This document shows, piece by piece, positions 35,079-50,456 of a stretch of DNA of 64,000 bases; within the stretch, counting starts at the first letter, position 1, and every line of letters begins with the position of its first letter. The position numbers and the translations under genes were made by a program. The notes under the pieces were generated by a model that worked only from the letters and a program-made list of their open reading frames with translations, had not been told where the DNA came from and searched no databases. The DNA comes from a virus. The stretch spans positions 39,390 through 103,389 of the IMG/VR virus record IMGVR_UViG_3300006175_000002; one strand, given 5' to 3'.

Positions 35079-35152
35079 AGGGGTGTAGCTCAGCAGGTCA
35101 GAGCGCCGATCTCCAAAGTCGGATGTCGCAGGTTCGATTCCTGTCACCCCTG
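35079..35152 (+). tRNA. tRNA-Trp (CCA)
   Basis: Acceptor AGGGGTG / CACCCCT, D-arm GCTC...GAGC, anticodon loop CTCCAAA and T-arm GCAGG-TTCGATT-CCTGT fold cleanly. It is the first tRNA of the array. Confidence 0.9.
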
Positions 35153-35193
35153 CTCAGCCTCGACTAATGGGCCGAGGGCACAGCACCATTGAC

Positions 35194-35215
35194 AAATCCA
35201 CAGTGGATGGCATGA
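35194..35215 (+). repeat. Left copy of a 22-bp inverted repeat flanking the tRNA array
   Basis: The 22 bases from AAATCCACAGT to GGCATGA match the reverse complement of 38308-38329 at 21 of 22 positions. The centre, ATCCAC-A-GTGGAT, is itself a perfect palindrome. The rest of 35153-35251 holds only a hairpin (GCCGGGG...CCCCGGC) and no tRNA. Confidence 0.65.
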
Positions 35216-35251
35216 AAGACGTGCCGGGGGGCTTCCGCTTCCCCGGCGCTT

Positions 35252-35324
35252 CGGGGGCGTGGGGCACGGTGACCCCTCCTGGCCTGGGACCAGGCAACAC
35301 GGCGTTCGACTCGCCGGCTCCCGA
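35252..35324 (+). tRNA. tRNA-Pro (TGG)
   Basis: Acceptor CGGGGGC / GCTCCCG with one wobble, D-stem GGGG/CCCC, anticodon loop CCTGGGA in a 5-bp CCTGG/CCAGG stem, T-arm CGGCG-TTCGACT-CGCCG. Confidence 0.85.
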
Positions 35325-35330
35325 CAACAT

Positions 35331-35404
35331 GCCTCGCAAGCTCCGAAGGTGTGAGCGCCCGGTTGAAGCCCGGGAGGCGCCCCGTTCGATCCGGGGGCGA
35401 GGCA
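35331..35404 (+). tRNA. tRNA-Phe (GAA)
   Basis: Acceptor GCCTCGC / GCGAGGC, anticodon loop TTGAAGC in a CCCGG/CCGGG stem, T-arm CCCCG-TTCGATC-CGGGG. All stems are perfect. Confidence 0.9.
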
Positions 35405-35409
35405 CGCTC

Positions 35410-35480
35410 GGCGGGTTCGGCTATCGGTAGGCCACCTGGTTCTCAGCCAGGCAGGACGGGTTCGACTCCCGTACTCGCTA
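35410..35480 (+). tRNA. tRNA-Glu (CTC)
   Basis: Acceptor GGCGGGT / ACTCGCT with G-T wobbles, anticodon loop TTCTCAG in CCTGG/CCAGG, T-arm ACGGG-TTCGACT-CCCGT. The D-stem has only 3 bp (GGC/GCC). Confidence 0.85.
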
Positions 35481-35481
35481 C

Positions 35482-35530
35482 GTCGGCAGGGGAAGCGTCG
35501 AGGCGCGCAACCTCGCCTCTGCCGGCTCCA
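35482..35530 (+). ncRNA. 49-nt tRNA-like mini-gene without a T-arm
   Basis: An 8-bp acceptor-like stem (GTCGGCAG / CTGCCGGC, one T-G wobble) is followed at its 3' side by TCCA. Inside is one 5-bp stem (CGAGG/CCTCG) with a 7-base loop, CGCGCAA. It fills the slot between tRNA-Glu and tRNA-Gly, where a full tRNA would otherwise stand. No T-arm is present. It could be a decayed tRNA, a processing hairpin or an armless tRNA-like RNA. Confidence 0.4.
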
Positions 35531-35531
35531 T

Positions 35532-35603
35532 GCCGGCGGGGTGTCCACGGTGACATGCCACTCTTCCAAAGTGGAGTAACGGGTTCGACTCCCGTCGCCG
35601 GTT
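35532..35603 (+). tRNA. tRNA-Gly (TCC)
   Basis: Acceptor GCCGGCG / CGCCGGT, D-stem TGTC/GACA, anticodon loop CTTCCAA in CCACT/AGTGG, T-arm ACGGG-TTCGACT-CCCGT. Confidence 0.85.
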
Positions 35604-35617
35604 CCAGAATAGTTCGG

Positions 35618-35689
35618 TGGCGATTCGGCTAATTGGGAGGCCGACGGGCTTTGGTCCCGTCTGTCCAGGTTCGAGTCCTGGATCGCCAG
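35618..35689 (+). tRNA. tRNA-Gln (TTG)
   Basis: Acceptor TGGCGAT / ATCGCCA, anticodon loop CTTTGGT in ACGGG/CCCGT, T-arm CCAGG-TTCGAGT-CCTGG. The fold is clean. Confidence 0.9.
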
Positions 35690-35693
35690 CAAC

Positions 35694-35767
35694 GCCGCGG
35701 TAGGCTAAATGGCAAAGCCGTTTGCTTCAAAAGCAGATGATTGTCGGTTCGACTCCGACGCGCGGCA
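35694..35767 (+). tRNA. tRNA-Leu-like (CAA), short variable loop
   Basis: Acceptor GCCGCGG / GCGCGGC has a G-G mismatch at the last pair. D-stem GGCT/AGCC, anticodon loop TTCAAAA in TTTGC/GCAGA, T-arm GTCGG-TTCGACT-CCGAC. The anticodon CAA reads Leu, yet the variable loop is only about 5 nt, whereas bacterial tRNA-Leu normally has a long arm. Confidence 0.7.
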
Positions 35768-35772
35768 CACCC

Positions 35773-35845
35773 GCCCTTGAAGCTCACCAGGTAGAGCGCG
35801 CGCATGGTAAGCGCGAGGCTGCCGGTTCGACTCCGGCCAGGGGCT
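35773..35845 (+). tRNA. tRNA-Thr (GGT)
   Basis: Acceptor GCCCTTG / CAGGGGC, anticodon loop ATGGTAA in CGCGC/GCGCG, T-arm GCCGG-TTCGACT-CCGGC. Confidence 0.85.
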
Positions 35846-35853
35846 CGTTCAAT

Positions 35854-35925
35854 GCGGCCATAGCTCAATGGTCCGAGTACTGCCTTGCCAAGGCAATGAT
35901 CCGAGTTCGATCCTCGGTGGCCGCT
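35854..35925 (+). tRNA. tRNA-Gly (GCC)
   Basis: Acceptor GCGGCCA / TGGCCGC, anticodon loop TTGCCAA in a 4-bp stem with one C-A mismatch, T-arm CCGAG-TTCGATC-CTCGG. Confidence 0.85.
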
Positions 35926-35957
35926 CGCAACCCACACACATCAGGAGGTGACCCGCA

Positions 35958-36401
35958 GTGGAAGCCGTACTAGTCCTCAACGCCGACCTCGGCCCCCTAC
36001 ACCGGGTCAGCCTCCGCCACGCAATCCGGATGCTCTGCCGCCAAGTCGCCGTGGTCCACGAAGCGGAGCCTGACATACGCATCGGTATCTTCCCGATGCC
36101 CCGGGCTGTCCGCCTCGTCCAGTACATCGTCACGAAATGGCGCTACACGACCGGACCCACCTGGTCCCGCACCGGCGTCATGAACCGCGACGGACACCGC
36201 TGCGGATACTGCCACGGACAGGCGACCACAATCGACCACATCCGGCCCCGCGCGCAGGGCGGCCGTAACTCCTGGCTCAACACAGTCGCCGCCTGCGCTT
36301 CGTGTAACCAGCGTAAGGGCGACCGCACCCCGGAGCAGGCGGGTATGCGGTTGCGTCTCACCCCGACCGCGCCAACGTGGGCGGTCCTGGGGATGCGCTG
36401 A
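35958..36401 (+). CDS. HNH endonuclease inside the tRNA array
   Basis: The 147-residue product has a GTG start preceded by AGGAGGTGA. The C-terminal half carries an HNH fold: CGYCHGQATTIDHIRPRAQGG with the catalytic His in TIDHIRP, then NTVAACASCNQRKGD with the second CxxC pair. The N-terminal half (LVLNADLGPLHRVSLRHAIRML) is the helical domain often found in phage HNH proteins of this class. It splits the tRNA array after the tenth tRNA-type unit and has its own ribosome binding site. It may be a free-standing homing nuclease that targets tRNA genes of related phages, or a packaging nuclease; its position favours the former. Confidence 0.85.
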   Translation: MEAVLVLNADLGPLHRVSLRHAIRMLCRQVAVVHEAEPDIRIGIFPMPRAVRLVQYIVTKWRYTTGPTWSRTGVMNRDGHRCGYCHGQATTIDHIRPRAQGGRNSWLNTVAACASCNQRKGDRTPEQAGMRLRLTPTAPTWAVLGMR

Positions 36402-36436
36402 AAGGGGTGCCGGCGGGTGTGGCGCCGGCCCCACAT

Positions 36437-36508
36437 TCTCCTGTCGTCTAACCGGTAGGATGCCTGATTCTGGCTCAGGTGATCGAGGTTCGAGTCCTTG
36501 CGGGAGAG
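36437..36508 (+). tRNA. tRNA-Gln (CTG)
   Basis: Acceptor TCTCCTG / CGGGAGA, anticodon loop TTCTGGC in CCTGA/TCAGG, T-arm CGAGG-TTCGAGT-CCTTG. Confidence 0.85.
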
Positions 36509-36512
36509 CTTT

Positions 36513-36587
36513 GCTGGTGTAGCTCACGTTGGTTCGAGCGGCTGCCTTGTAAGCAGCAGAACGCGGGTTCGATTCCTGTCACCAGCT
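36513..36587 (+). tRNA. tRNA-Thr (TGT)
   Basis: Acceptor GCTGGTG / CACCAGC, anticodon loop CTTGTAA in GCTGC/GCAGC, T-arm GCGGG-TTCGATT-CCTGT. Confidence 0.85.
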
Positions 36588-36591
36588 CTGA

Positions 36592-36660
36592 GGGCGACGC
36601 ACAGGTGTGCAGGGCTGTTTTGCAAACAGCCTTTGCTCGGTTCGATACCGAGGTTGTCCA
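36592..36660 (+). tRNA. tRNA-Ala (TGC), shortened D-arm
   Basis: Acceptor GGGCGAC / GTTGTCC with wobbles, anticodon loop TTTGCAA in GCTGT/ACAGC, T-arm CTCGG-TTCGATA-CCGAG. The D-arm is only GCAC-AGGT-GTGC, which makes the molecule 69 nt. Confidence 0.75.
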
Positions 36661-36661
36661 C

Positions 36662-36735
36662 GCTCGCGTAGCCCAACTGGTAGAGGCGTCAGGCTTAGAC
36701 CCTGATCAGTGCACGTTCGACTCGTGTCGCGAGTA
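36662..36735 (+). tRNA. tRNA-Leu-like (TAG), short variable loop
   Basis: Acceptor GCTCGCG / CGCGAGT, anticodon loop CTTAGAC in TCAGG/CCTGA, T-arm GCACG-TTCGACT-CGTGT. Like the CAA tRNA, it has a class I variable loop despite a Leu anticodon. Confidence 0.75.
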
Positions 36736-36740
36736 CGCAT

Positions 36741-36814
36741 GATGGCGTGGCCTAGCTGGTTAAGGCACCACCCTGTCAAGGTGGAAATCGCGGGTTCGAG
36801 TCCCGTCGTCATCG
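36741..36814 (+). tRNA. tRNA-Asp (GTC)
   Basis: Acceptor GATGGCG / CGTCATC, anticodon loop CTGTCAA in CCACC/GGTGG, T-arm GCGGG-TTCGAGT-CCCGT. Confidence 0.9.
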
Positions 36815-36817
36815 CTT

Positions 36818-36903
36818 GGAAGGGTGGCCGAGCCCGGTCGATGGCGCCGCGCTGCTAACGCGGTTCACCTCGTGTGACGCGGGTTCAAATCCCGCCCCTT
36901 CCG
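36818..36903 (+). tRNA. tRNA-Ser (GCT)
   Basis: Class II tRNA: acceptor GGAAGGG / CCCTTCC, anticodon loop CTGCTAA in CCGCG/CGCGG, a long variable arm (TTCACC...GTGTGA) and T-arm GCGGG-TTCAAAT-CCCGC. Confidence 0.9.
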
Positions 36904-36907
36904 CCAC

Positions 36908-36981
36908 GTCGCCGTAGCTCAGTCGGTTCGAGCGCTTCGCTGATAACGAAGAGGTCGGGGGTTCGATCCCCTCCGGCGACA
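36908..36981 (+). tRNA. tRNA-Ile (GAT)
   Basis: Acceptor GTCGCCG / CGGCGAC, anticodon loop CTGATAA in CTTCG/CGAAG, T-arm GGGGG-TTCGATC-CCCTC. Confidence 0.9.
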
Positions 36982-36991
36982 CGCACCACAT

Positions 36992-37064
36992 GCCCCCGTA
37001 GCTCAATGGATGGAGCACTTCGCTACGAACGAAAAGGATGCGCGTTCGAGTCGCGCCGGGGGCA
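36992..37064 (+). tRNA. tRNA-Arg (ACG)
   Basis: Acceptor GCCCCCG / CGGGGGC, anticodon loop CTACGAA in CTTCG/CGAAA, T-arm GCGCG-TTCGAGT-CGCGC. The A34 would be expected to become inosine. Confidence 0.9.
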
Positions 37065-37070
37065 CGCAAT

Positions 37071-37144
37071 CAGGGTGTAGCTCAACTTGGTGGAGCACGT
37101 GCCTGGGGGGCACGCGGCCGCAGGTTCAAATCCTGTCACCCTGA
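37071..37144 (+). tRNA. tRNA-Pro (GGG)
   Basis: Acceptor CAGGGTG / CACCCTG, anticodon loop CTGGGGG in CGTGC/GCACG, T-arm GCAGG-TTCAAAT-CCTGT. Confidence 0.88.
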
Positions 37145-37149
37145 CTCAT

Positions 37150-37232
37150 GGAAGGTAGCGCCCAGTGGTGGGCAACCGGTCTTGAAAACCGGGCCGGGGT
37201 GACTCCCGAGGGTTCGACTCCTTTACCTTCCG
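37150..37232 (+). tRNA. tRNA-Ser (TGA)
   Basis: Class II tRNA: acceptor GGAAGGT / ACCTTCC, anticodon loop CTTGAAA in CCGGT/ACCGG, long variable arm GCCGGGGTGACTCCCG, T-arm with TTCGACT. Confidence 0.88.
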
Positions 37233-37233
37233 C

Positions 37234-37307
37234 GCGCTGGTAGCTCAGCCTGGCAGAGCGGCCGATTCTTAATCGGCGGGTCGGGGGTTCAAATCCCTCT
37301 CGGCGCA
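37234..37307 (+). tRNA. tRNA-Lys (CTT)
   Basis: Acceptor GCGCTGG / TCGGCGC with wobbles, anticodon loop TTCTTAA in GCCGA/TCGGC, T-arm GGGGG-TTCAAAT-CCCTC. The 3' ACCA is encoded. Confidence 0.85.
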
Positions 37308-37311
37308 CCAT

Positions 37312-37385
37312 CCCCTCGTAGCTCAGTGGACAGAGCCGCAGGTTTCTACCCTGCGAGGGCGCCCGTTCGAGTCGGGCCGGGGGGA
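37312..37385 (+). tRNA. tRNA-Arg (TCT)
   Basis: Acceptor CCCCTCG / CGGGGGG, anticodon loop TTTCTAC in GCAGG/CCTGC, T-arm GCCCG-TTCGAGT-CGGGC. Confidence 0.88.
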
Positions 37386-37389
37386 CGAT

Positions 37390-37462
37390 CTCCTGCTAGC
37401 TCAATGGATAGAGCACTTCGGTCCTAACGAAACGGTTCCCGGTTCGAGTCCGGGGCAGGAGA
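37390..37462 (+). tRNA. tRNA-Arg (CCT)
   Basis: Acceptor CTCCTGC / GCAGGAG, anticodon loop GTCCTAA in CTTCG/CGAAA, T-arm CCCGG-TTCGAGT-CCGGG. Confidence 0.88.
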
Positions 37463-37470
37463 CGTTTTGC

Positions 37471-37542
37471 GGGCTGCTAACTCAATGGCAGAGTAGCGGG
37501 CTTTTAACCCGAGAGTTCTCGGTTCAAGTCCGAGGCAGCCCA
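37471..37542 (+). tRNA. tRNA-Lys (TTT)
   Basis: Acceptor GGGCTGC / GCAGCCC, anticodon loop CTTTTAA in GCGGG/CCCGA, T-arm CTCGG-TTCAAGT-CCGAG. Confidence 0.88.
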
Positions 37543-37543
37543 C

Positions 37544-37615
37544 CGCGGGGTAGAGCAGTGGCAGCTCACCGTCCTCATAAGTCGGAGGTCACCGGTTCGA
37601 CTCCGGTCCCCGCTT
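37544..37615 (+). tRNA. Initiator-like tRNA-Met (CAT)
   Basis: Acceptor CGCGGGG / CCCCGCT leaves the first pair unmatched (C-T), as initiator tRNAs do, and the D-arm TAGAGCAGTGGCAGCTC matches the initiator style. Anticodon loop CTCATAA; T-arm ACCGG-TTCGACT-CCGGT. The usual three G-C pairs of the anticodon stem are not intact. Confidence 0.78.
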
Positions 37616-37617
37616 CC

Positions 37618-37690
37618 GTCCTGGTAGCTCAGTGGGAGAGCGCCCGCCTGACGCGCGGGAGGTTCGCAGGTTCGACCCCTGCCCGGGACA
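37618..37690 (+). tRNA. tRNA-Val (GAC)
   Basis: Acceptor GTCCTGG / CCGGGAC, anticodon loop CTGACGC in CCCGC/GCGGG, T-arm GCAGG-TTCGACC-CCTGC. Confidence 0.88.
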
Positions 37691-37695
37691 CGCTT

Positions 37696-37767
37696 GGCCT
37701 CGTCGACTATTGGTTAGGTTTCCGCTCTTTCACAGCGGAGGACAGGGTTCGATTCCCTGCGAGGCTA
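37696..37767 (+). tRNA. tRNA-Glu (TTC)
   Basis: Acceptor GGCCTCG / CGAGGCT, anticodon loop CTTTCAC in CCGCT/AGCGG, T-arm CAGGG-TTCGATT-CCCTG. Confidence 0.88.
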
Positions 37768-37772
37768 CTCAT

Positions 37773-37846
37773 TCCGGTATCGCCTAGTTGGTATGGCAAC
37801 GCACTGTTAATGCGTACAAGGGTTGGTTCGAGTCCAACTGCCGGAG
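37773..37846 (+). tRNA. tRNA-Asn (GTT)
   Basis: Acceptor TCCGGTA / TGCCGGA, anticodon loop CTGTTAA in ACGCA/TGCGT, T-arm GTTGG-TTCGAGT-CCAAC. Confidence 0.88.
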
Positions 37847-37854
37847 CCTGTCGT

Positions 37855-37927
37855 GCCTCGCGGTCCCTCTGGTGGGGGTGCCTGACTTATGATCAGGACG
37901 TGGTGGGTTCAATTCCCACGCGGGGTA
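37855..37927 (+). tRNA. tRNA-Ile (TAT)
   Basis: Acceptor GCCTCGC / GCGGGGT, anticodon loop CTTATGA in CCTGA/TCAGG, T-arm GTGGG-TTCAATT-CCCAC. It reads the rare AUA codon directly. Confidence 0.85.
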
Positions 37928-37931
37928 CTTT

Positions 37932-38003
37932 GCGCGCGTAGCTCAGTGGGAGAGCAGCCCGTTCACACCGGGCAGGCCGGAGGTTCGAGTCCTTCCGTGC
38001 GTA
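37932..38003 (+). tRNA. tRNA-Val (CAC)
   Basis: Acceptor GCGCGCG / CGTGCGT with wobbles, anticodon loop TTCACAC in GCCCG/CGGGC, T-arm GGAGG-TTCGAGT-CCTTC. Confidence 0.85.
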
Positions 38004-38005
38004 CT

Positions 38006-38077
38006 GTGTCTATGGCGTAGTGGTCTGCGCGTCGGGTTGTGGCCCCGAAGGTCCCGGATCGTAACCGGGTAGACACC
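38006..38077 (+). tRNA. tRNA-His (GTG), unusual T-loop
   Basis: Acceptor GTGTCTA / TAGACAC, anticodon loop TTGTGGC in TCGGG/CCCGA, T-stem CCCGG/CCGGG. The T-loop reads ATCGTAA instead of the usual TTCGAnT. Confidence 0.8.
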
Positions 38078-38079
38078 CC

Positions 38080-38150
38080 GGGAGTGACGCATGGTGTCGA
38101 GCGCTCGCTGTAAACGAGTAGCCCTGGGGGTTCGAGTCCCTCCGCTCCCA
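38080..38150 (+). tRNA. tRNA-Tyr (GTA), short variable loop
   Basis: Acceptor GGGAGTG / CGCTCCC, anticodon loop CTGTAAA in GCTCG/CGAGT, T-arm GGGGG-TTCGAGT-CCCTC. The variable loop is short although bacterial tRNA-Tyr is normally class II, and the D-arm is poor. Confidence 0.8.
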
Positions 38151-38155
38151 CGCTT

Positions 38156-38229
38156 GCCCTCGTAGCTCAGCGGATTAGAGCACCAGGTTCCGAACCTGAC
38201 GGTCGCGCGTTCGAGTCGCGCCGGGGGCA
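38156..38229 (+). tRNA. tRNA-Arg (CCG)
   Basis: Acceptor GCCCTCG / CGGGGGC, anticodon loop TTCCGAA in CCAGG/CCTGA, T-arm GCGCG-TTCGAGT-CGCGC. Confidence 0.88.
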
Positions 38230-38233
38230 CGTT

Positions 38234-38304
38234 GGCGCTGTGACCGAGTGGTTAGGTGGCGGTCTGCAAAACCGCATACGCCGGTTCGAGTCCGGCCCGC
38301 GCCT
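38234..38304 (+). tRNA. tRNA-Cys (GCA)
   Basis: Acceptor GGCGCTG / CCGCGCC with one mismatch, anticodon loop CTGCAAA in GCGGT/ACCGC, T-arm GCCGG-TTCGAGT-CCGGC. Confidence 0.85.
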
Positions 38305-38307
38305 CGA

Positions 38308-38329
38308 TCATGCCATCCGCTGTGGATTT
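38308..38329 (-). repeat. Right copy of the 22-bp inverted repeat flanking the tRNA array
   Basis: This matches the reverse complement of 35194-35215 with one mismatch, which falls in the central palindrome. It lies between tRNA-Cys and the last tRNA. Confidence 0.65.
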
Positions 38330-38331
38330 CT

Positions 38332-38401
38332 CGCGGGCGGGCCGGCCGCCCAGCTGGCTTTCATACGGCCGGTGTGCCCGGTTCGACACCGGGGCCCGCG
38401 A
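38332..38401 (+). tRNA. tRNA-Met elongator-type (CAT)
   Basis: Acceptor CGCGGGC / GCCCGCG, D-arm GGGC-CGGCC-GCCC, anticodon loop TTCATAC in TGGCT/GGCCG (wobbles at both ends), T-arm CCCGG-TTCGACA-CCGGG. A CAT anticodon could also be tRNA-Ile if modified to lysidine. Confidence 0.72.
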
Positions 38402-38409
38402 CTCTTCTT

Positions 38410-46574: not shown

Positions 46575-47345
46575 TTATGCCAGTGACTGGTGATATGCGA
46601 ACTTGACCAGGCCGGCGTCGGCGACGATCCGGAGCGCCTCGATCGGCTTGTCATTGTTGTCGTGGGTGACGCGCCACGCTTCTATCACGACCGACCCGGC
46701 CGGCCGGTCCAGAATGGTCAGCTCGGCGTCGGTACCGACGCGGGCGGCGACTTCCTCGGTGAACCAGGCCGGTTGGATACCGACGGTGGTCATGTACGCG
46801 TACACGCCGCCGAGGATGTCACCTGACCGGGCTAGGGCGGTGTCCTTGACCCGTTCGTAGGGCATGAACGCGCGCTGCAACTGGGCTGGGCCGACGCCGT
46901 CGATGGTGGGGTTGCGGTACCGGACGACGACTCTGGTGCCGGCGTCGACCTTGAGGAGTTCAGCGATGTGGGAGTCGGCGTGTTCGATGCGTACGTCGTG
47001 GACGCGGCCGTGGCCGGTGAGGTTGTGGGCGCGTAGCGCGGTTTCCCAGGGGCCGAGGGTGGCGTGCTCGCGGTGCGGGTCCATCGCGGCGAGCATGTGT
47101 CGGGCCACGGTGACCTGGACTCGCAGGGGTGCGGTGAAGATGCCGGTGCTGCGCCGTGACACGACGAGTCCTTCTCGTTTGAGGATGTCGAGGGCGCGGC
47201 CGATGGTGGTGCGGTTGACGTCGAAGCGGTCGCTGAGTGTGGCTTCGGTGCCGATGTGGGTGTTCGGGGGGAACAGGCCGGTGGTGAGTTCGGCGCGGAG
47301 TTCGCCGGCGATTTGCTGGTAGCGGGGGTGGTGCACGTTGCTCAT
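46575..47345 (-). CDS. GntR-family transcription regulator (HutC/KorSA-like)
   Basis: The 256-residue product has GGGAGG upstream of its ATG. Residues 1-75 form the GntR winged helix (YQQIAGELRAELTTGLFPPN, then RFDVNRTTIGRALDILKREGLVVSRR). Residues 90-256 fit the UTRA ligand domain, with RVVVRYRNPTIDGVGPAQLQ, ARSGDILGGVYAYM and VIEAWRVTHDNNDKPIEALRIV. Actinomycete transfer genes are typically repressed by GntR proteins such as KorSA. It is transcribed in the same direction as the transfer operon and probably controls it through the palindrome at 46526-46560. Confidence 0.85.
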   Translation of the reverse strand: MSNVHHPRYQQIAGELRAELTTGLFPPNTHIGTEATLSDRFDVNRTTIGRALDILKREGLVVSRRSTGIFTAPLRVQVTVARHMLAAMDPHREHATLGPWETALRAHNLTGHGRVHDVRIEHADSHIAELLKVDAGTRVVVRYRNPTIDGVGPAQLQRAFMPYERVKDTALARSGDILGGVYAYMTTVGIQPAWFTEEVAARVGTDAELTILDRPAGSVVIEAWRVTHDNNDKPIEALRIVADAGLVKFAYHQSLA

Positions 47346-47519
47346 CGGGCCTCCCTAGTTGACGGTTGTCGATGACGATCGTACTGGGTTTTGTGTCCGC
47401 AAACCGATCTGGGGGTGTCCCATGCAGGGGACATTCCGGCCGTGGGGGTCGCGGCGGGGTTTTAGGGTTGCGGCGACGCAGTGATACCGCTAACGTGGCC
47501 CTTGCGCAGTTCCCCCCCT
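47346..47519. other. Intergenic region between the GntR gene and the Y-RNA module
   Basis: The GntR promoter should lie here. A hairpin, TGTCCC-ATGCA-GGGACA-like (near 47417-47433), is visible. No open frame with a ribosome binding site was found. Confidence 0.3.
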
Positions 47520-47639
47520 CCCGGTGCGTAGTTTGCGGTTACTTCAAACTTCGGATTTGACCCGTACCGCAGGCGTCATGATCGCGGGAGGTCACACAAC
47601 TGGATATGCACCTTCCCGGTGCGCAGACGCGTGGTTACT

Positions 47640-47740
47640 TCATAGGGAACCGTCGGTTGCAGGTTCGACTCCTGCCGGCCCGCCCACATGTGGGCCGTAG
47701 CTCAATGGCAGAGCATCGGTACGAAAACGCCAAGCGTCGT
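47640..47740 (+). ncRNA. Y-RNA-like (YrlA-type) tRNA mimic, copy 1
   Basis: The core at 47659-47714 has tRNA parts in permuted order: T-arm GCAGG-TTCGACT-CCTGC, then an acceptor-like stem CGGCCCG / TGGGCCG closed by a short loop containing CCCA, then a D-arm GCTC-AATGGCA-GAGC. In bacterial Y RNAs a tRNA-like domain with joined ends sits on a Ro-binding stem, and they are encoded beside Ro60 genes, as here. The outer ends, which would form the Ro-binding stem, are only approximate. A related block precedes copy 2. Confidence 0.7.
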
Positions 47741-47799
47741 TTCTGATCTCGGGAGGGGTAGACAATTGGATCGTGGGTGCCCGGTGCGTAGGGGTTCGA

Positions 47800-47915
47800 T
47801 ACTTCCATTGCTAAGGACGAGGTCGCAGGTTCGATCCCTGCCAGTCCCCGGGAAACCAGGGCTGTAGCTCAGCGGTAGAGCGCGTAAAGACTCGAACGCC
47901 GCCTAGATCTCGGGC
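47800..47915 (+). ncRNA. Y-RNA-like (YrlA-type) tRNA mimic, copy 2
   Basis: The core at 47825-47881 repeats the permuted layout: T-arm GCAGG-TTCGATC-CCTGC, acceptor-like CAGTCCC / AGGGCTG with a 9-base loop, D-arm GCTC-AGCGGTA-GAGC. Upstream of each copy are the same blocks, ACAAyTGGAT, CCCGGTGCGyAG and TACTTC, so the two are tandem duplicates that may each have a promoter. A third upstream partial block (47520-47545) lacks the RNA part. Boundaries are approximate. Confidence 0.7.
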
Positions 47916-47937
47916 ATCTTTCACTCTCCACATTCGA

Positions 47938-47967
47938 CGCTCCTCCCCTAGCTGGAGGAGCGTTTTT
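47938..47967 (+). terminator. Terminator/attenuator hairpin that contains the TROVE ribosome binding site
   Basis: A perfect 9-bp stem, CGCTCCTCC / GGAGGAGCG, with a 7-base loop is followed by TTTTT, then directly by the GTG start at 47968. The 3' arm GGAGGAG is the only Shine-Dalgarno sequence of the TROVE gene. The hairpin can end Y-RNA transcription and also hide the ribosome binding site. Confidence 0.8.
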
Positions 47968-49602
47968 GTGTCGAGGTTCAACACTGTGGACAAGCGGGCG
48001 CCGCGGGAGCGGGCCACGTCGCCGATCACGACGGAGGCGACGGCGTCGGGTGTGACGCATGAGGGCGGGCCCGGGTTCGCGCGGAACGCCAAGTCGGAAC
48101 TGTTCTTGCTGGCCGTGTCCAATATGGTCGGTGAGGACACGTTCTACGAGAAGGCCGGCGACCGCGACGGCCGGTACGCGGAGCTGGTGCGCCAGGTGGC
48201 GGTGGCCGACCCGGTGTGGATGCTGGGGTTCCTGGGCTGGCTGCGTAGTGAGGGCAACATGCGGTCGGCGTCGCTGGTCGGCGCGGCGGAGGCGGTCCAC
48301 GCCCGGCTGGCGGTCAACCGGACCATTGAGGCGGGTGGCCACGTCACGGTGGTCGAGTCGGGGAACCGTCAGATGGTGGCTGCGGTGTTGCAGCGCGCGG
48401 ACGAGCCGGGCGAGTTCCTCGCCTACTGGCGGCAGACGTTCGGCAGGAACCTGCCGAAGCCGGTGAAGCGGGGCATCGCCGACGCGGTCCGTCGCCTCTA
48501 CAACGAGTACGCGCTGCTGAAGTACGACACCGCCTCGCACAGGTTCCGGTTCGGTGACGTGATCGACCTCGTCCACCCGTCGCCGTCGGCGCCGTGGCAG
48601 GGGGACCTGTTCCGGTACGCGCTGGACCGCCGCCACGGCCGCAACAACGAGGTGCCGGGGTTGCTGTCCATGGTGCGCCGGCAGGCCGAGTGGCGGGCCA
48701 ACGCTGACGCGTCGCCGCTGCCGGTGGAGGGACTGCTCGACCCGGAGCACATTCGCGGTGCTGGGCTCACGTGGGAGGACGTGCTGTCGCTGCTCGGGTC
48801 GAAGGTCGACAAGGCGCAGCTCTGGTCGGCGCTGATCCCGTCAATGGGGTACATGGCGCTGCTACGGAACCTGCGCAACTTCGACGAGGCCGGCGTGCCC
48901 GACGAGATCGCCGCTGAGGTGGCGGCGCGGCTCGCGGATCCGGAGCAGGTCGCGAAGTCGCGGCAGTTGCCGATGCGGTTCCTGTCGGCGTTCCGGTCGG
49001 TGCCGTCGCTGCGGTGGGGGCAGGCGCTCGAGGTCGCGTTGGGTCATTCGTTGGCCAACGTGCCCCCACTGCCCGGCCGCACGTTGGTCCTGGTCGACGT
49101 GTCCGGGTCGATGGACAACCGGATGTCGGGGAAGTCGGGTCTGTCGCGGGTCGACGCGGCGAAGGTGTTCGGTGCGGCGGTCGCGTTGCGGGCTGAGCAG
49201 CCGACGCTGGTGTGGTTCAACAACGCGTCGGGGCAGGTGCCGGTGCCGAAGGGAATGGCGTTGCTGCGCCTGGTGCAGGTGCTGCCGTCGGCGATGGGTG
49301 GCACAGCGACCGCGGCGGCGGTGCAGCGATGGTTCGACCGCCACGATCGGGTTGTGATCGTCACCGACGAGCAGGCCGGGAACCACTTCGGCGGATGGGG
49401 GTCGGGTCCGGTGGATGCGGCGGTGCCGGCGTCGACGCCGATCTACACGTGGAACCTCGCCGGGTACGAGCGGGGCCACTTGCCGTCAGGGTCGGGTGCG
49501 CGGCACACGTTCGGTGGGCTATCCGACGCGGCTTTTCGGATGATTCCGCTGCTCGAGGCGGGCCGGAACGCGGCGTGGCCGTGGCAGGCCGTCGCAAGTT
49601 AG
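47968..49602 (+). CDS. rsr: Ro60 orthologue (TROVE-domain and vWA protein)
   Basis: The 544-residue product starts at GTG 47968. The N-terminal 350 residues are the helical TROVE ring (KSELFLLAVSNMVGEDTFYE, DPVWMLGFLGWLRSEGNMRSASLV, WEDVLSLLGSKVDKAQLWSALIPSMGYMALLRNLRNF). The C-terminal part is a von Willebrand A domain with an intact MIDAS start, DVSGSM (Asp377), and later VTDEQAG. Ro60 rings bind Y RNAs and misfolded RNAs, and with PNPase or other nucleases support RNA quality control. Two Y-RNA-like genes lie immediately upstream. Phage-borne copies are known. Expression probably depends on the hairpin just ahead. Confidence 0.9.
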   Translation: MSRFNTVDKRAPRERATSPITTEATASGVTHEGGPGFARNAKSELFLLAVSNMVGEDTFYEKAGDRDGRYAELVRQVAVADPVWMLGFLGWLRSEGNMRSASLVGAAEAVHARLAVNRTIEAGGHVTVVESGNRQMVAAVLQRADEPGEFLAYWRQTFGRNLPKPVKRGIADAVRRLYNEYALLKYDTASHRFRFGDVIDLVHPSPSAPWQGDLFRYALDRRHGRNNEVPGLLSMVRRQAEWRANADASPLPVEGLLDPEHIRGAGLTWEDVLSLLGSKVDKAQLWSALIPSMGYMALLRNLRNFDEAGVPDEIAAEVAARLADPEQVAKSRQLPMRFLSAFRSVPSLRWGQALEVALGHSLANVPPLPGRTLVLVDVSGSMDNRMSGKSGLSRVDAAKVFGAAVALRAEQPTLVWFNNASGQVPVPKGMALLRLVQVLPSAMGGTATAAAVQRWFDRHDRVVIVTDEQAGNHFGGWGSGPVDAAVPASTPIYTWNLAGYERGHLPSGSGARHTFGGLSDAAFRMIPLLEAGRNAAWPWQAVAS

Positions 49603-49923: not shown

Positions 49924-50003
49924 GCTGTGTTCTAATTGCGGTATCGGTTCACGATGGGCTTTCCGCATGAGACAAGCCCAGCATTCTGGAGGAGATGAAA
50001 CAA
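49924..50003 (+). promoter_or_regulatory. Leader of the lsr2 gene with a small hairpin
   Basis: A hairpin GGGCTT...AAGCCC (49956-49979) lies 20 bp ahead of the start, and GGAGGAG precedes GTG 50004. The sequence TTGCGGTATCGGTT at about 49936 resembles the promoter region at 63746-63761. Confidence 0.4.
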
Positions 50004-50456
50004 GTGGGTACGAAGACTGTTCTGTGTGACGACCTGGACCAGGAAAGCCCGGCCGATGAGACGGTGGAGTTCCGCGGCCCGGACGGGTTGCTGCGGGTGA
50101 TTGACCTGACCGCCGACCACGCGAAGCAGCTGCGTGACGCGCAGGACGAGTACGCGGCGGCGATGTCCGATTTCGTGAACGCGGGCCGGCTGGTCGATGT
50201 GAAGCCGACGGCGAAGCGTGCGCCGGCCGGAAGGGGCCGACCGGCCGGGAAGGGTGGTCGGGCGTCGGCGCGAGGGGACAGTGCGCAGAACGAGGCGATC
50301 CGGGAGTGGGCGCAGCGCAACGGGTACGACGTGGCGGCGCGGGGCCGGATTTCGCAGGAAATCCGTGACGCGTTCCAGGCGAACCAGCCGGCGCCGATGA
50401 CGACGGTGGAGGCCCCCGCTGTGCCGGGCGCCGCGGGGCGTCGCCGCAAGGGGTAA
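50004..50456 (+). CDS. lsr2: Lsr2-family nucleoid-associated protein
   Basis: The 150-residue product has its start set at GTG 50004, because GGAGGAG is 9 bases upstream; an ATG at 49995 lies too close to it. The N-terminal dimerisation domain is visible (TVLCDDLDQESPADETVEFRGPDG ... ADHAKQLRDAQDEYAAAM). The linker is Lys/Arg/Gly-rich, and the C-terminal DNA-binding domain ends EWAQRNGYDVAARGRISQEIRDAF, with the RGR minor-groove hook. Lsr2 silences AT-rich DNA in actinobacteria. Phage copies may shape the phage chromosome or interfere with host silencing. It sits alone between terminators. Confidence 0.9.
   Translation: MGTKTVLCDDLDQESPADETVEFRGPDGLLRVIDLTADHAKQLRDAQDEYAAAMSDFVNAGRLVDVKPTAKRAPAGRGRPAGKGGRASARGDSAQNEAIREWAQRNGYDVAARGRISQEIRDAFQANQPAPMTTVEAPAVPGAAGRRRKG

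Follow-up and report, generated by a model that had tools for sequence, protein, structure and literature searches.

Ro60 and Y RNA work as a pair, and clusters of Ro60 (Rsr) with Y RNAs were reportedly described in bacteria and phages by Chen et al. in 2014 (RNA 20:1715; cited in PMC9569102). The DNA that we analyzed, referred to here as the window, is a 64,000-nucleotide stretch of a 103,389-base IMG/VR virus record, and its source is an actinobacterial phage. The window carries a TROVE/Ro60 gene that is preceded on the same strand by an array of Y RNA modules and by a hairpin that reaches the start codon (Table 1). The Ro60 protein matches the Pfam TROVE family (PF05731, E 1.3e-19), Ro60 and bacterial TROVE structures in the PDB, and the actinophage "Ro-like RNA binding protein," to which it is 42–47% identical. 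It has a TROVE plus vWA organization in which the MIDAS motif DxSxS reads DVSGS, and the vWA_Ro60 match scores 22.4 bits, below its 27.7 cut-off. Nearly all relatives begin M-x-[RK]-F-N, and on this comparison Ro60 very probably starts at GTG 47968.

Among the neighboring genes, 33 tRNA genes with many anticodons are densely packed on one strand at 35079–38402, roughly 9 kb upstream of the Y RNA modules. A divergent gene for a GntR/UTRA-family regulator (46575–47345, − strand) immediately borders the array on its upstream side, and a gene for an Lsr2-like nucleoid protein (49995–50456) lies downstream of TROVE.

Table 1. Features of the Y RNA/Ro60 locus, in window coordinates
Feature	Position	Strand	Details
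Candidate promoter for Y RNA array and Ro60	47468-47496	+	TTGCGG-N17-TAACGT; weak, consensus only
Y RNA module 0	47517-47592	+	Short, without tRNA-like domain; basal stem CCTCCCGG...CGGGAGG
Y RNA module 1	47612-47757	+	YrlA-like, T-arm/D-arm tRNA mimic; R1 92.6 bits, E 5e-18
Y RNA module 2	47777-47918	+	Terminal, YrlA-like; basal stem GTGCCCGG...CTCGGGCAT
Hairpin left (anti-SD) arm	47937-47946	+	ACGCTCCTCC; sequence read directly and folding
Hairpin right arm	47954-47963	+	GGAGGAGCGT; sequence, folding, covariation in relatives
Shine-Dalgarno (SD) GGAGGAG of Ro60 gene	47954-47960	+	Within right arm; 7 nt to GTG
Terminator T-run TTTTT	47963-47967	+	Abuts start codon GTG 47968-47970
TROVE/Ro60 (Rsr) gene	47968-49602	+	544 aa, GTG start; Pfam, PDB and actinophage matches

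The Y RNA array and its leader

The initial annotation had a Y RNA just upstream of the hairpin, and covariance model matches bear this out, except that there are three same-strand Y RNAs in tandem and not a single one. To find them we used a covariance model, R1, built from an alignment (A2) of the Y-like module nearest TROVE in 39 loci. In A2/R1, the basal stem that pairs the 5′ and 3′ ends is conserved among the Ro60-linked RNAs, and 21 of the 33 consensus pairs have double changes. Module 2, which is itself among the 39 model sequences, scores 95.2 bits (E 1.3e-18), and module 0, searched for in 201 bases with filters off, scores 41 bits (E 1.3e-9). Module 0 is supported further by its fold (z −3.2) and by the repeats D2, D4, and D5. 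Nearly all other R1 matches in the window score 33 bits or less and fall in the tRNA array, as expected from tRNA likeness.

By Rfam alignment, modules 1 and 2 contain a tRNA-like domain (T-arm then D-arm), which is absent from module 0. Modules 1 and 2 score 36.2 and 33.3 bits against Rfam YrlA (RF02553), matches that were obtained at a lax threshold and that lie below the gathering score of 69, the curation cut-off; we therefore call the modules YrlA-like and do not file them as RF02553 members. The modules of the array are predicted to be the Y RNA partners of Ro60.

We compared the locus with a set of 99 dereplicated TROVE loci, drawn from viral contigs and genomes, with named phages and plasmids as examples. 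In 89 of the 99, the 3′ end of a same-strand Y module lies no more than 110 nt upstream of the TROVE start, with a median of 50 nt, so that a separate promoter could hardly fit between Y RNA and hairpin. In the window, the interval from the GntR gene to TROVE holds a single same-strand match to the pattern TTG-N3-N(16-19)-TANNNT, the candidate promoter of Table 1, and a stricter sigma-70 scan gave no promoter. Since the candidate lies ahead of the first Y module, the array and Ro60 likely have one leader, and the GntR/UTRA regulator could control the putative shared promoter. In L014, L017, L020, and L119, the Y modules are downstream of TROVE, and the TROVE start is without a strong SD hairpin.

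The hairpin at the Ro60 start codon

The initial annotation described a stem followed by TTTTT that abuts the GTG and whose 3′ arm is the Ro60 SD, and this is exactly what is read in the sequence. The left strand CGCTCCTCC (47938–47946) and the right strand GGAGGAGCG (47954–47962) enclose the loop CCTAGCT (47947–47953). If A47937–T47963 is included, the stem has 10 perfect Watson-Crick pairs (47937–47946/47954–47963), and adding G47936–T47964 brings it to 11 stem pairs. Folded in isolation, the hairpin has a predicted stability of −19.3 kcal/mol (z −5.5), and none of 200 shuffles was equally stable. It is the single instance of a perfect stem of at least 9 bp with a T-run on both strands of the 64 kb, and six one-strand 64-kb dinucleotide shuffles contained none. 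With a GC-rich stem and a U-run immediately 3′, the hairpin has the sequence features of an intrinsic terminator.

In every leader length that we folded, whether or not the Y RNAs were included, the SD is almost always paired, and its unpaired probability is below 0.02 per base with one exception, a value of 0.16 in one fold. The claim that GGAGGAG is the sole ribosome binding site holds for the conserved start, but a weaker GAGG (47973–47976) sits 9 nt 5′ of an in-frame GTG at 47986.

No Rfam match to a known leader RNA was found. We rejected a T-box, as no T-box covariance model matches at gathering within the window, and also a leaderless start, as the SD is retained in relatives and AGGAGC at −12 to −7 is unlike a −10 box.

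The SD stem in relatives

To follow the hairpin beyond the window we used two comparisons. The first was a covariation test on 27 loci chosen by eye for having hairpins, where double changes affect 10 of 13 pairs; the covariation score was reached by none of 500 shuffles, and every slid version of the alignment scored lower. The second compared stems over the TROVE leaders, with loci not selected by hairpin and with control genes called automatically. Stems of at least 12 bp bury the SD in 14% of the TROVE leaders but in only 0.9% of shuffles and 1.5% of other genes, and for stems of at least 10 bp the figures are 22%, 4.5%, and 5.1%, respectively (Fisher 1.7e-5 versus other genes). An outer-pair permutation used hairpin-selected loci, and we place weight on the covariation test and the stem comparison instead. 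Strong SD stems occur in a minority of relatives, and an adjacent Y RNA showed no significant link to an SD stem of at least 8 bp (P 0.49, with few negatives). The comparison with relatives supports the earlier proposal of one hairpin, placed between the Y RNAs and the Ro60 start, that has a terminator-like form and buries the SD.

Other arrangements occur among the relatives. Most Streptomyces loci have a shorter pairing, CCTCC with GGGGGA, and no U-run, and phages of the BRock/GiJojo type have Y RNAs upstream and an open SD with no hairpin at it. In Gordonia phage VanLee, the Y RNAs are followed by an 11-bp hairpin with TTTT, and the SD is a separate element downstream. These variants indicate that a fused terminator and SD is one of several solutions. 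In L054 (2940–3000) and similar Streptomyces loci, the loop that separates the anti-SD CTCCCC from the SD GGGGGA contains an extra, inserted hairpin, and GAATTCGGGGGAATTC at the SD of such loci could also fold into a small alternative hairpin whose loop holds the SD. In L090 (2970–3003), Ro60 seems to use the Y RNA 3′ strand CGGGAGG as its SD, which would then be masked directly when the Y RNA folds.

Proposed termination, SD masking, and origin

We consider it reasonably probable, and the most likely reading, that the hairpin is a fixed hinge, serving as a terminator for Y RNA transcripts and as a lock on the SD in read-through mRNA. The array would share one leader and one promoter with the Ro60 gene. 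By intrinsic termination, the hairpin would stop most transcripts of the array and so yield Y RNAs, and in the minority of transcripts that read through to become mRNA, the same hairpin would keep the Ro60 SD paired and allow little Ro60 to be made per Y RNA. From this arrangement we infer termination, translational repression, and an excess of Y RNA over Ro60. High-GC Streptomyces are known to use U-rich intrinsic terminators (PMC8780764). A paper on S. avermitilis, consulted for the transcript ends of Streptomyces TROVE and Y RNA, mentions neither.

If the hairpin repressed Ro60 translation without terminating transcription, the T-run would be incidental. SD pairing is indeed wider than the U-run, since pairing of at least 0.7 is found in 70% of relatives and 38% of other genes, and the T-run in only about 10%. 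However, shuffles that keep base composition reach 58%, so composition explains part of the pairing, and T-runs next to the start codon are not a general feature of these loci: a run of T4 or longer at most 13 nt from the start occurs in 10 of 99 relatives, whereas the 195 other genes taken from these loci have none (P 1.4e-5). The T-run loci are viral (L001, L002, L003, L018, and the window) or bacterial (Actinoallomurus, Sphaerisporangium, Microbispora, Spirillospora, and Streptosporangium), and the form is found mostly in Streptosporangiales and phages. The terminator-like hairpin of VanLee, which does not overlap the SD, is likewise expected if ending the Y transcript matters in itself. 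We regard a lock without termination as rather unlikely.

The hairpin might instead do nothing except end Y RNA transcripts, with Ro60 made at a fixed read-through rate under no special translational control and the SD overlap arising simply from a start codon set tight against the hairpin. The canonical terminator form and the VanLee hairpin agree with this, but a stem of about −19 kcal/mol that covers the SD would be expected to reduce initiation as long as it stays closed, and many relatives bury the SD in a stem that has no U-run. Termination by itself seems to us more doubtful still.

Feedback through Ro60 binding to the Y RNA, as suggested in the initial annotation, finds no support here. 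Module 2 ends at 47918 and the hairpin starts at 47936/47937, so the two share no bases and can form together, and binding of Ro60 need not affect the hairpin; we rejected a switch through the terminal Y RNA on this ground. Nor did we find a convincing antiterminator in the left arm and upstream Y 3′ strands, whose pairing is barely better than that of permuted partners. A true switch, in which Ro60 or PNPase on the Y RNA would change hairpin formation to give autoregulation (for example, by pairing of the left arm with the GGGAGG 3′ strand of an upstream Y RNA, which would then be the antiterminator), is very improbable: the left arm can pair with its best alternative partner, the module 1 3′ strand (~47749–47757), at −17.0 kcal/mol, the hairpin probability drops to 0.83 if the fold begins at module 1, and own-locus pairing is slightly better than permuted (57/2000, 31 loci), but this effect is small, the hairpin (−19.8 kcal/mol) dominates in all folds, and it has no bases in common with the terminal Y RNA.

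As to how the lock arose, we suggest only tentatively that a truncated Y module became the terminator and anti-SD while the terminal Y RNA shed its GGGAGG 3′ end. Such an origin would couple Ro60 output to the production of its RNA partner. Loss of the SD-like GGGAGG would keep the terminal Y RNA from acting as a ribosome binding site or antiterminator; near the start codon, GGGAGG would be an SD in its own right. In motif searches with one mismatch allowed, AGG follows GATCTCGGG in 59 of 141 earlier modules and in 7 of 62 terminal modules (P 9e-6). In L002, L038, and L069, the same kind of search showed the hairpin to differ from the Y 5′ strand CTCCCGGTGCGnAGG by at most 2 mismatches (0.04 loci expected), and this near copy is placed about where the next Y module would start. 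The gaps between modules (median 22 nt) resemble the distance from Y RNA to hairpin. As sequence patterns, both the loss of the terminal AGG and the hairpin copy of the Y 5′ motif are suggestive.

Ro60–Y RNA clusters, terminated leaders, and masked SDs are each already known. Like YrlA (RF02553)/Rsr loci, the window has a Ro60 ortholog and adjacent Y RNAs with a tRNA-like domain, in an arrangement with phage examples, but it differs from them in its three-module array and in Rfam scores below gathering. In the S. meliloti metZ leader, termination at a SAM-II riboswitch gives the sRNA RZ (PMC9373788), so that there, as proposed here, the terminated leader is a small RNA and the read-through product an mRNA. 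The metZ riboswitch is switched by a ligand, whereas the small RNA of the window is the predicted partner of the encoded protein, and we found no ligand or convincing alternative fold here. Translational T-boxes of Actinobacteria have SD-sequestering expression platforms (PMC7583486), and the window resembles them in having a leader stem that masks the SD but differs in lacking identified tRNA-sensing elements or an antisequestrator. A similar layout is that of VanLee, where a Y RNA array, a terminator-like hairpin, and the Ro60 gene follow in the same order, but there the terminator and SD are separate elements, and in the window they are fused.

Our literature search, which reached few subscription papers, turned up no description of one hairpin serving as terminator and SD mask between Y RNAs and Ro60, and none of how bacteria or phages set the Ro60:Y RNA ratio. 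If the proposal is true, that ratio would have a simple explanation in a conserved hinge, which would act on one transcript both to end the RNA and to lock the gene for the protein.

Well-bounded Y RNA arrays are now delimited in about 100 actinobacterial and phage loci, and some coincide with other annotations. In VanLee (L118), an annotated tRNA-Arg (2204–2275) coincides with the 5′ half of a Y module (R1 2203–2341, 105.8 bits), and in GiJojo (L117), an annotated tRNA-Arg (2269–2343) does so as well (R1 2265–2410, 50.3 bits). Given this overlap, both are probably misannotated Y RNAs. In Gordonia phage Neville (L121), genes 89 and 90, annotated as small "hypothetical proteins," lie over or beside a Y module (R1 2229–2377).
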